A DNA stretch of 64,000 nucleotides, taken from NCBI GenBank assembly GCA_963921795.1, contig OY997653.1, forward strand, positions 22,889,158 through 22,953,157. The letters run 5' to 3'. Position numbers and translations under genes: made by a program. Of this stretch, positions 972 to 61,278 are shown piece after piece. The notes below the pieces were generated by a model, which had not been told where the DNA came from, did no database searches, and was given only the letters and a program-made list of their open reading frames with translations. The first letter of the stretch is position 1, and the number at the start of each line of letters is the position of its first letter. Source of the DNA: Nannobrachium achirus (taxonomy: Eukaryota; Chordata; Actinopteri; Myctophiformes; Myctophidae).

Positions 972-1584
972 ATAGTCGCTGTTGAGCAGAAACCTCTTAT
1001 CTCTGCATTTTAACTTTTTGTGTTTTTTTCCCCCCAGAAATGAATGCCCTACTTTTTTTCACTTTTCACATCACGGTCCATTTTCTATTTGGCAAGATTT
1101 GAGCCACGGACCACCATTTGAGATTGTACCATTTTAGATTTACTCTAGCCTCTCAGACCCAAAACTTAGAATAGTTAGTTATCGTTGGATACGATTTTGT
1201 CCACAATTCCAAGCTGTATTGATGTTGGTGGCTGGTGCCATATAGGAGAGATAACAGGTAAATCAAAATAACAATTCTTCTACATTCTCTATTTGTGTCG
1301 ACTTCTTGTAAATCAAGTAATGCAGATGTTTAACAATAATTTAACTCTTGAGAGCGTGGAATGAAACCAAATGGACCCTTAAGGTTCCATTTAGCTGGGG
1401 ACCACCTGGAACCCCCCTCAAACCGCCATACCACCATACTACCACGTCACACAATAGCAATCAAAAGTAGCAGATCTACAAGATCGAAACGCGTGTTCCG
1501 ATTCTTGTAGATCTGCTATTTTTGAATTTGAATCCTGAAAATAACTGTTTTGGACATATGAGGTTTCCACCCAAAAGAGACAGT
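972..1584. mobile_element. TCGTC-family TIR element, interrupted
   Basis: Left end ATAGTCGCTGTTGAGCAGAA, right end complement CACTGTCTCTTTTGGGTGGA. The central hairpin is at 1463-1523. It is interrupted at about 1060-1260 by a fragment also found at 35710-35885 (shared ACGGACCACCATTTGA-like words). Confidence 0.65.
1463..1523. repeat. Recurrent hairpin module
   Basis: AAAAGTAGCAGATCTACAAG pairs with CTTGTAGATCTGCTATTTTT. The inner arms are short and mismatched. Confidence 0.85.
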
Positions 1585-2099
1585 GTTTTCAGTACCCCCT
1601 TCAACAGCTCAAAACGTTTGTCAGGATACTGCAGCATTTTGGGTGCTGTTTCTGCCTTGCAATTGTTTTATTCATCCACTTCAATTCAATGGTGCCTCAG
1701 GCCAGGTAAAAAAAAAAGAAAAAAAAGAAAAGAAAAAAAAAAGATTTAGCTGGCATTTAGCTGGTATTTTTGTAGAAAAGAATTATAGAAGCTTTTTGGA
1801 ACATGTTTTATTCATGTTGAATTTTATTTTTACATGCATCTTCTCCTCTGGGGGTCCCTGGCACAAAACATTCAGATGGGGTCTCCACAGTCCAAATCAA
1901 TTTGTAGGGTATTTGGCTCAGGGCACCCCTGTAAATAACCTTTTCATCTACGGCACCGCGGGCCCACTGAACTACATTGTTACTTCATGGCACCCTTTGT
2001 CATATTACGGTACCTAAATGTCCATGGAAACAGGTAGTTTTCCTTTGTGTGTTGCATTGGAAAATAGTGATGTGACTAAAATGGTGATTTGTATTTTCA

Positions 2100-2420
2100 C
2101 AATAAATGTTTTTATTTTTTATTTTATTTTATTACTTTTTTCCTATAATTTTTGTCCCACGATTTTGTAACCCATTTTTCACCCAGTGCCAATTGCCTAT
2201 ATTTAATCCTGGGCTCTGCTCTCCCTCTGCCGCGCCTGGGGAGACAACGGACTGACCTCATGCTTCCTTCTATGCATGAGGAGCCCAAGTTGCTTCTTTT
2301 TTCACCTGACAGTGGAGATTTCCCTGGTTTGGACGTAGGGTGTGGAAGGAACACGTTATACCAACCAGTTCCGTTCCCCTCCATCAGGCACCCCGGCTGG
2401 CCAGGGGGAGGCAACAATAA
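2100..2420. repeat. Dispersed repeat shared with 48080-48345
   Basis: The reverse complement of 2150-2230 (GGCACTGGGTGAAAAATGGG and flanks) matches 48290-48335, and the 'CTCCCTCTGCCGCGCC' block matches in reverse at 48250-48280. Two overlapping long ORFs on opposite strands here (2124-2630, 2152-2586) show no family features. Confidence 0.55.
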
Positions 2421-2561
2421 ATTAATGTTTTTAATGAGAAAAAACCTCTGCACGTTAACCTTTGTTTCCCAATTGCCAACAAATAAGACAAAACCTTTTA
2501 TTTTTATTTTTTTTAACAAAGAATTTGTTTTGTACAAAGAACATTGGAAGTACCCAGTATG

Positions 2562-2720
2562 TAATCCTTCACTTAGTAGGCACTGAATGATCAAGCAAAG
2601 AGCAAACAAATTGACAAAATGTGAAAACATAGCCAGTATTTAATCCTTCACTTAGTAGGTATGTACTCTGATCAAGCAAACAGCAAACACATTGACAAAA
2701 TGTGAAAACAAAGCCAGTAT
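2562..2720. repeat. 79-bp tandem duplication
   Basis: TAATCCTTCACTTAGTAGG starts at 2562 and 2641, and GACAAAATGTGAAAACA recurs at the same spacing. Confidence 0.85.
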
Positions 2721-3057
2721 TTAAAGGAGTAGTTCACCCTCAAAATGACCATTTTTCTATTGATTACTTCACCATGGACACTTGAATTCAATAATATTTA
2801 TTTGTATTTGTCGCTATCCTAAGACAACATTTTGATCATTGTAAATGTACCCCCATTGATTCCGGATGGGGACCCAAATGCATGCGGGTCCCCATCCGGA
2901 ATCAATGGGGGTACATTTATTGTAATCAAATTATTGTCTTAGGAATACGACAAAAACTAAAAAAAATAGAAAAAAACGAAATATCCATTAATTCAAGTCT
3001 CCATGGCATGAGTAATCAATAGAAAAAAGTCATTTGGGGGGTAAACTACTCCTTTAA
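2721..3057. mobile_element. Palindromic TTAA-flanked MITE
   Basis: TTAA at both ends, then AAGGAGTAGTTCACCC / GGGTAAACTACTCCTT. The arms extend about 150 bp to a centre at about 2885 (GGGTCCCCATCCGGAATCAA pairs with its complement). TTAA target sites suit piggyBac or Kolobok derivatives. Confidence 0.8.
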
Positions 3058-58924: not shown

Positions 58925-59310
58925 AGGGACGTGCAGAGAATGTTAGAGAGGCAGGGGTTGAAATTTCTAAAAGGGCATTTTGGTGAAAATATCGAAAATA
59001 GCAGACCTCCAATCTCACAACGTGTCGAGGTCGGCTATTTCCGGTGCTTGATACCACACTGAACTAAGCATTATCAAGTCAATACTGGAGATGTGGAGTA
59101 ACAGCATGGATTTCTACACAGATAGGGAAATTCTTTCAACATAAGATGTTGCATTCAAGTTCAGGAGAGTTTGAACAGGGCAATTTCTCTTCAAATGCTG
59201 CCTTCAGGTATGACATGGACATTTGTGTTTCTTTCACCATAGTAAAAACTGCATTCATGATCACTTTTTACAGAAGGACAAAAGGGCAGGGGCTCAAGTC
59301 ATGTGTGCAC
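58925..59310. repeat. Dispersed repeat with degraded hairpin (copy 2)
   Basis: Reverse-complement match of 39097-39530. Hairpin remnant at 58994-59040 (GAAAATAGCAGACCTCCAA...GAGGTCGGCTATTTC). Confidence 0.75.
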
Positions 59311-59479
59311 GGGCCTGTTGCCAGGCTGCCAGAGCAAATGATAGCAGATTTGTCAGGGTTCCAGAACTTGTTGAAATTGATGCCAAAAGTTCAAATCGAT
59401 ATGAATTGAGTGAAATCAGTTCCTTTAATGATATAGGAACTGATCTCTCTCTGTCTTGACTCTTGTCCCCCTTTTCTCT

Positions 59480-59624
59480 CTCTCTTTCTCTCTCTCTCTC
59501 TCTCTCTCTCTCTCTCTCTCTCTCTCTCTCTCTCTCTCTCTCTCTCACACACACACACACACACACACACACACACACACACACACACACACACACACAC
59601 ACACACACACACACACACACACAC
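59480..59624. repeat. Compound (TC)n-(AC)n microsatellite
   Basis: TC about 59484-59546, AC 59547-59624. Confidence 0.97.
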
Positions 59625-60776
59625 ATTCACCACTGGTCGAGAGAATGCTTGGAGGCAAAACGAGTTCTGCCCAGGGCCATAAACATGCCTTGGGCCCGTG
59701 GGCTGGCCCGGCAATAGATCATATATACAGTACATGATGGGGCTGAACAACAATGAGACTCTGAGTATAGTCTCTGAGACTGGAAGAAATATGAAGAAAA
59801 GGGAACACACCAGTGTGTGAACAGACAAAGATCAGGTGCTGTCTTTCTGTACACATACCATCCTGAAAAATTAAATAAATCCAAACCAAAACAAACAACT
59901 CACTACTTGTTTTTCTCCTCTCTCTCTTACTGTGCCTTACACCAGTCGTTCTCAAAGTATAGTAATAATAGGTGTAACATCACCTGAATGTTTTAGTTTA
60001 TATATTGTTTATTGTGAGCACAACCGACGGAGCAGGAGACATAGACACGTTTTTTTTTCCAGCGGGGAATACGTTTGCAGGAACACCGCACTGTGAAAAG
60101 AAGACAACTTCCGCGAATATTCAGCCCCACCTCCTAGAACTCTCTCTGCCTCATATCTTGACCAGGCTTTTCTCTTCGCAGATGAGTAAGCCTGGCTACG
60201 CGAGGCTATAAAATACCAGGTAACCAGAGGCCTCTTGTGGCTTATTGCTACATTAATACCTTGGGGATATATAGAGCTCAAGAAGCTAACAGTATCTGGG
60301 ATTTTGTTGGATACGATGCACACACACACACGCACGCACGCACGCACGCACGCACATGCGCACATACGCACATACGCACGCACAATTTGGGGGGTGAGTG
60401 TGTGTGGCCGCAGGACCGGTCACTTCATGCTGGCCTGATTCATGGCCAGAGAGAGGAGAGGAGAGGAGAGGTCAGGGAATGGAGGGGAGTTATGGAGGAG
60501 CTATCAGGGCCAAACGAGCTACAAGGTAATACTTATGACTCTTATGGGAAACATAAAATATGATTATGGTTTTGATGATAATAAGGTTTGAGAAGATAAT
60601 AATGTTGTCGATGATTTATTGAGCAGTAGTCGTAATAGTAGCTGTTGGTGGAATAAAGGGACTTGTATTGGACACAGCAATATAAACCTCAGTGCCAATG
60701 TATCTGTTTCTAACTAGCATTGTTAGTACAGTTTAAGCGCCTCCTCCAGTGATGAAGTATTTATAGGAACAGTAGG
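59625..60776. other. Mostly unassigned
   Basis: 60122-60220 is the second copy of the exon-like repeat at 50785-50882. CACG/CACATACG tract 60316-60383. AGGAG run 60451-60468. No gene. Confidence 0.45.
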
Positions 60777-61278
60777 CAGTGTTGATTTCGTTGACTAAAA
60801 CTATGACGAAAAATGTTTGTCGACTGTGTTTTTTTCACTGACGAAAACGAAATAAAAACGAAATAAAAACTAAGCTGTGATGACTAAAACTAAGACTAAA
60901 TATATTGACAATTTTGTCAACAAAATAAAACTAGACTAAAACATTAGGGAGGGACTAGTGGAGAAGAGAGTCATTTTATGTTTGGTTGCTCTCAGGTGTT
61001 GTATGCTGAAAATAGCCGATCTACAAGCTCACAACGCGTCGCAGCAACCAAGTGTGAATTCAATCATTACGATGCCATCAAGGCCTGCCAAAATGCATTT
61101 TAGTTGACTAAATCAACTGTAGATTTAGTCGCCTAAAATCATATGATATTTAGTCAAATAAAATTAGACTAAAACTAAAACTTTTCAGGTGACTAAATTA
61201 TGACTAAAACCAAATGACATTTTATTCAGAAGACTATGACTAAAACTAAATCAAAATGTGCTGTCAAAAACAACAGTG
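60777..61278. mobile_element. hAT-type element with perfect ACAGTAGG duplication and half hairpin
   Basis: Ends CAGTGTTGATTTCG and CAACAGTG. ACAGTAGG at 60769-60776 and 61279-61286. The interior is full of GACTAAAACTAAA words. The half hairpin at 61008-61045 reads GAAAATAGCCGATCTACAAG then CTCACAACGCGTCGC. Confidence 0.85.

Follow-up and report, generated by a model that had tools for sequence, protein, structure and literature searches.

A 73-nt palindromic hairpin shared by several families of short DNA transposons in Nannobrachium achirus

The window analysed here is a stretch of 64,000 nucleotides (nt) from the genome of the myctophid fish Nannobrachium achirus (contig OY997653.1, assembly GCA_963921795.1; G000:C16:22889158-22953157 of the genome searched), labels such as L033 referring to stretches elsewhere. 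It contains about 27 sites, detected by an arm-consensus scan, at which a palindromic hairpin is embedded in short repeated elements, most of them miniature inverted-repeat transposable elements (MITEs) of hAT type (Table 1). A sequence-only reading had noted about 25 copies of this palindrome within hosts with unrelated ends. All 14 copies that it considered clear were recovered, and the palindrome proved more frequent than noted.

Hairpin sites and their hosts

The arm consensus matched 25 times on the plus strand and 16 times on the minus strand of the window (41 arm matches), against 0, 2 and 2 matches in three random sequences matched to the window in dinucleotide composition, each read on one strand. 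A covariance model trained on the 14 clear copies, which match it by construction, detected 18 loci at E <= 0.01, comprising these copies and the sites near 15790, 24993, 41704 and 61008. Part of the copies previously described as halved or decayed was thereby recovered, whereas those at 33996, 22495 and 51085 were marginal (E 0.015-0.035) and those at 38660 and 45845 were picked up by the arm scan alone and not by the model. In the whole 1.66-Gb genome, the arm AAATAGCNGATCTACAAGC had 595,444 matches at no more than one mismatch (298,069 + 297,375), and the reversed arm pattern had none at the same threshold. A sample of 20 contigs, each represented by a single 10-kb stretch, contained 80 hairpin loci (arm with at most 4 substitutions), of which one or two may, by our estimate, be due to chance.

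Full hairpins measured exactly 73 nt in 38 of 67 cases, and the consensus of these 73-nt hairpins, AAAAATAGCAGATCTACAAGCTCACAACGCGTCGCGCTGCGACGCGTTGTGAGCTTGTAGATCTGCTATTTTT, was self-complementary at 71 of its 73 positions. The boundary of the unit was sharp at GAAAATAGC, with high information inward and background reached within ~12 nt outward over 155 arms and 58 flank clusters (0.97 bits at -4, 0.34 at -12 and at most 0.11 beyond), and with additional pairing extending ~5-8 nt outward of the edge. Folding of 12 window copies gave z scores from -3.5 to -14.6. The arms, initially described as often perfect, are not so in general: perfect 28-nt arms were found in 1 of 57 distinct full hairpins, and the mean ungapped arm identity was 0.81, a value lowered by decayed and indel-bearing copies. 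At one stem position, A in one arm opposite C in the other recurred across hosts (22/57 hairpins, and 43/68 in the segment T described below).

The hosts of the hairpin comprised six families of hAT-type MITEs showing 8-bp duplications, another two families and one TCGTC-ended element, which bears out the claim of unrelated ends. Duplications matching at 7/8 or 8/8 positions were observed for ten elements covering the six hAT-type families (window 39072, 58924, 36280 and 52874; L033:9436, L033:898, L033:7082, L021:63, L036:9609 and L034:1959), nine of them found from family ends and one, at 52874, through an open search that yields chance pairs elsewhere too. Terminal inverted repeats were present in the hAT-type hosts. 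Family H1 ended in CAGGGACGTGCA, family Fb in TAGGGCTGTCACG (L033:9436-9822, with CCTTACGG on both sides) and family Fc in CAGTGGTTCTCAACC (L033:7082-7451 and L034:1959-2865, both 7/8); we take CAGTGGTTCTCAACC and similar ends to be those of hAT families, as the 8-bp duplications support. Copies of H4 with an 8/8 duplication occurred outside the window (L021:63-494 and L033:898-1340), and an H5 copy in L032 had GCTGCAGC/GGTGCAGC adjoining its ends by eye. No clear target duplication accompanied the TCGTC-ended element (H3), and a CAGGGGTGGGCAAC-ended host recognized by eye in L010 displayed neither a duplication nor paired ends in the end-motif search. Family G began with TAGGCCTGGGGCGG; among the copies listed, most were 95-99% identical over the compared flank parts and some 81-88%.

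The H3b subfamily was found nested inside CAGGGTTCCCCA (window 50262-50718) and inside a CAGGGACGTGCTGG element (L028, L040). In H4, the hairpin lay within T, a segment with inversely oriented TTAACCACTTGAAC at its two boundaries, and the H2 contexts had flanks, TTAACCACTTCAA, similar to these. The nesting in CAGGGTTCCCCA modifies one earlier assignment: the hAT-type CAGGGTTCCCCA element proposed as host of the 50463 hairpin does exist, but the hairpin belongs to the TCGTC family because a TCGTC-ended element, identified by eye, is nested in that host. Likewise, the hairpins at 52962 and 53276 are both present and are parts of one element, 52874-53470. By eye, the 17945 hairpin resembles the family of 39372 and 58994. 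Two candidate copies lacking the hairpin were rejected as empty sites: an H2 copy at L031:8181-8512 lacked a longer stretch, and L040:1359-1765, taken for an H1 copy, was a different element (CAGGGACGTGCTGG) holding a nested H3b.

Table 1 Hairpin sites and hairpin-bearing elements of the window
Feature	Position	Strand	Duplication, inner features and evidence
Hairpin in TCGTC-ended element (H3a)	1462..1524	.	Position check, folding, covariance model
Hairpin in H3a element	3847..3920	.	Position check, folding, covariance model
Hairpin in H3a element, element ~5271-5518 (ends by eye)	5372..5445	.	Folding, covariance model
Hairpin in H3b element, whose ends by motif lie near 6475 and 7499	6578..6651	.	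Covariance model
Half hairpin, CAGTGGTGGAAA-type context (H2)	15787..15816	.	Arm scan, covariance model
Hairpin, decayed context resembling H1 by eye	17946..18010	.	Folding, covariance model
Hairpin arms, interrupted, H2-type context	22733..22857	.	Arm scan
hAT-type MITE H2 (CAGTGGTGGAAA)	36280..36953	+	Duplication CAATTCAC/CAATTCCC 7/8; hairpin 36465-36528
hAT-type MITE H1 (CAGGCATGTGCA..TGCACGTCCCTG)	39072..39514	+	Duplication TCCGGATG; hairpin 39371-39443
hAT-like MITE H4 (CAAGGGTCTTCAAC)	41544..41919	+	Duplication 6/8; inner TTAA-flanked segment T 41652-41762, half hairpin 41697-41725
Short hairpin, H2-type context	48603..48651	.	Position check, folding, covariance model
hAT-type CAGGGTTCCCCA	50262..50718	+	Duplication GGTTAGGG; nested TCGTC element H3b with hairpin 50462-50534
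hAT-type MITE H5 (CAGGGGCGTCAC)	52874..53470	+	Duplication GTTGCATC/GTTGTATC 7/8; hairpins 52962-53019 and 53276-53330
TCGTC-type element	53711..54500	+	Hairpin 53923-53989; nested H4 element 54046-54428 with hairpin 54176-54222
hAT-type MITE H1	58924..59317	+	Duplication TTGCCAGG; hairpin 58994-59042
Single arm; matching context at L032:2337	61008..61037	+	Arm scan, covariance model

Short copies, flanks and pairing of the arms

The sequence-only reading had considered that the palindrome might move by itself, and had proposed a search for empty sites and edge duplications in each host family. In 67 full hairpins from 21 contexts, no direct repeat of at least 4 nt, the sizes compared with a null, stood out at the edges, the best mean identity of 0.42 comparing with maxima of 0.33-0.43 in 30 shuffles. 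Short copies, sought with exact flanks separated by 0-20 nt in H3b, T and H5 and by BLAST of the joined flanks in G, were found 215, 43, 50 and 2 times, respectively. Among the 195 copies read in these four families, none had directly joined flanks and no clean empty site appeared; nearly all retained stem remnants, at many different junctions. Of the 215 H3b places, the 100 listed had 70 distinct junctions; 56 of these 100 could be read as pure deletions with an overlap of 0, 1 or 2 nt (24, 24 and 8), and 56 retained 3 nt or more of each stem base. The 43 short copies of T displayed 38 distinct junctions, versus 835 copies with a 70-76 nt insert (the only insert range counted), and the 50 of H5 displayed 39, with AAAAATATTTTT occurring 9 times. 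In G, 2 of 40 scored loci (1321 candidates) were short, both with stem remnants.

Late entry of the hairpin into a family would be expected to leave a clean site common to its copies. Since none was seen, each family or subfamily tested probably possessed the hairpin in its founder, and the hairpin rides with its host. We conclude that individual copies lose it through deletions of its middle, the nearly bare junctions discussed below being the weak point of this conclusion. Breakage at palindromes followed by end joining is described in the review PMC7999016, and from the junctions we infer the same process at the hairpin in these copies.

The edges of the hairpin do not simply coincide with homologous host sequence, as the rapid fall to background indicates, yet some host pairs share 20-45 nt of inner flank. 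Inner-flank likeness reached the lowest attainable p for T-H2, H2-H5, H5-Fc and H3a-H3c, and the next-lowest for H3b-Fb and Fb-Fc, these values being rough because they are based on typed representatives. Overall, 10/171 side pairs were at the lowest attainable p where ~0.6 would be expected; of these, six or seven compared subfamilies, or sides, of a single family. In a second flank test, 5/24 flank pairs of H2-H4 and 3/24 of H2-H5 exceeded the 99% null. Over two sets of comparisons, most cross-family pairs remained below it, 571/598 and 619/633 (27 and 14 above, ~6 expected each). This pattern fits chained nesting and capture with variable flank better than a single insertion or a common host, although it is no proof of capture.

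The arms behave differently between families and among the copies of T. Double changes affected 10/23 pairs among the 14 window hairpins (0/500 shuffles as high), and 67 same changes on both arms were counted among 57 distinct hairpins for 27.5 expected (0/1000 permutations as high), both comparisons mixing host families. Within T, by contrast, 174 changed pairs in 68 copies consisted of 171 one-arm changes, 3 unpaired changes of both arms and no compensated change, when 6.9 both-changed pairs were expected by chance. For eight families or subfamilies, the consensus hairpin was compared with T; 22 of the 57 changed pairs were paired double changes, the remainder being 27 one-arm unpaired changes, 5 changes repairing the T mismatch and 3 unpaired double changes. 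With the 5 repairs excluded, paired double changes amounted to 22/52 between founders versus 0/174 within T (p ~1e-16, the 22 not being independent). Pairing kept between founders and not among T copies suggests that selection acts on pairing in the source elements. It also favours, among earlier proposals, a possible shared function of the hairpin. Another proposal, maintenance by self-copying, found no support in individual copies: no automatic arm correction was visible in them, and pairing would be either kept in multiplying lineages or renewed at founding.

Proposed origin and role of the hairpin

On balance, it appears somewhat probable that many families of non-autonomous DNA transposons, for the most part hAT-type MITEs, contain the hairpin as an internal module of 73 nt that is moved by its hosts, has been present from the founder onwards in each family or subfamily tested and is not self-moving now. 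Founders would have acquired it through the nesting of one hairpin-bearing MITE inside another, and through the capture of the hairpin with 20-45 nt of flank as new MITEs formed. Host transposition would then carry the hairpin along, the hairpin may aid the amplification of source elements, and single copies would shed it by breakage and end joining.

Several observations weigh against this scenario. The first transfer of the hairpin between families was not seen, and the shared inner flanks could reflect common descent of host parts. The same end-families may also include members without a hairpin: among 25 paired-end elements recovered from eight end motifs (two sharing one right end), 20 contained at least one arm and five none (L035:7325, L028:8176, L031:8181, L040:1359 and L037:3068), the closer look having covered L031, L028 and L040 only. 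Inserts or mismatches occurred in 44/100 H3b junctions, where 'deletion' is a reading; the barest H3b junctions consisted of a single G (2 rows), with GAAA and TTTC 6 times each, and an H5 junction of AT only was found twice. Such nearly bare junctions may represent a clean site altered later. Finally, the founder consensus derives from 1-5 copies in each family, and founders have some of their changes in common, hence the non-independence of the 22.

An unlikely, but more far-reaching, extension is that the hairpin constitutes a cis-acting amplification module, so that MITE families acquiring it out-multiply their relatives without it, whichever transposase is involved. If true, this would account for the same palindrome in unrelated hAT-type families and in a TCGTC-ended element, for its presence in founders, and for pairing kept in source elements and not in ordinary copies.

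A likewise improbable alternative is that all hosts descend partly from a single ancient element that had the hairpin at its centre, and whose ends and flanks later diverged or were swapped. The inner flanks common to host pairs and the recurrent A/C at one stem position are compatible with it, but the host ends differ, with 8-bp duplications in six families, and the great majority of cross-family flank pairs lie under the 99% null. Still less probable is a palindrome mobile in itself, as an ultra-short foldback MITE or REP-like unit inserted into many host transposons. Its sharp edges over 58 flank clusters, its recurrent 73-nt length, its occurrence in about nine hosts and the 16/78 loci with neither flank repeated within the sample would agree with such mobility; the lack of edge duplications of at least 4 nt and of directly joined flanks in short copies argues against it, as does the higher frequency of repeats in hairpin flanks than in random DNA (87/156 versus 130/379).

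The stable folds and the pairing kept between families could also reflect an RNA function of the hairpin, through small RNAs or processing. We regard this as very unlikely, since all Rfam matches in the window stay under the gathering score of their family and only weak microRNA look-alikes were obtained (e.g. mir-3145 at 39370, 38.9 versus 98 bits). The lowest credence goes to arms kept alike without selection, by template switching or arm-to-arm conversion. Template switching is a known route to such double changes (PMC8794818), and the excess of double changes and of same changes on both arms, mostly between families, is what it could produce; its signature was nevertheless not seen in the 68 copies of T, where both-arm changes fell below chance expectation and none was compensated.

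Neighbouring features and known systems

Some further structures accompany the hairpin sites. Inverted repeats of 114 nt, 100% identical (22508-22621 and 22965-23078), surround parts of H2 type, and the left repeat adjoins the hairpin arm at 22496. A minus-strand open frame of 277 codons (18777-19610), ~770 nt from the 17945 hairpin, has no Pfam match, and its transposon-like nature is a guess. Some young G copies (L042, where it is altered, L044, L045, L046 and L033) have another small palindrome, formed by GTCGCCTCTCCAC with its complement, which is absent, between CACAG repeats, from L043 and L047; template switching is a possible origin. Elsewhere in the window are a palindrome at 22129-22359 (109-nt arms, 100% complementary, 13-nt spacer), further long palindromes at 43989-44317 and 34306-34582, a 1.1-kb inverted repeat (98% identical, 8670-9805 and 13169-14293) with 167-nt tandem arrays in each copy, and a 327-nt tandem duplication (99.7% identical, 27149-27803) of CGGTCGCTAAATC-rich repeats. 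A bombesin-receptor-like exon lies at 55720-56160, and a 440-nt duplication (90%; 55392-55831 and 57568-58006) overlaps the bombesin-receptor-like open frame.

The internal sequence of MITEs is usually regarded as filler. If one palindrome is common to numerous unrelated families and its pairing is kept in multiplying lineages, internal structure would become one of the traits in which transposons compete with each other. The varied short junctions, in addition, form a natural record of how a vertebrate germline handles a short DNA hairpin. Like known hAT MITEs, the hosts described here are short and repeated, with terminal inverted repeats and 8-bp duplications; unlike those in the titles and abstract openings of open-licence literature, several of their families share one internal 73-nt palindrome, and no report of a palindrome common to unrelated MITE families was found in the same titles and abstract openings.

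Beyond this genome, viral contigs yielded no match to the two-arm pattern and 1 to the one-arm pattern, and in 257 Gb of prokaryote genomes the exact arm pattern matched 8 times, close to the 7-8 matches estimated for chance; a second arm accompanied none of these 9 matches within the 70 bases examined. Repetitive hairpin-forming elements are described from sponge mitochondria in PMC2800124. They and other organelle palindromes resemble the present hairpin as repeated, genome-invading palindromes, but the sponge elements are organellar and, in the abstract of that paper, not described as internal transposon modules, whereas the hairpin is nuclear, the window lying in a contig of 64,448,347 bases. 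Among vertebrate repeats, MADE1 is reportedly an 80-bp palindromic mariner MITE with its own TA duplication. It is similarly tiny, palindromic and abundant; at the hairpin edges, by contrast, no duplication of at least 4 nt is seen. The REP/BIME palindromes of bacteria, which are moved by RAYT proteins, offer a comparable case of short palindromes that owe their spread to a separately encoded enzyme, with the difference that they are bacterial and that, for the hairpin of N. achirus, the movement of its hosts suffices.

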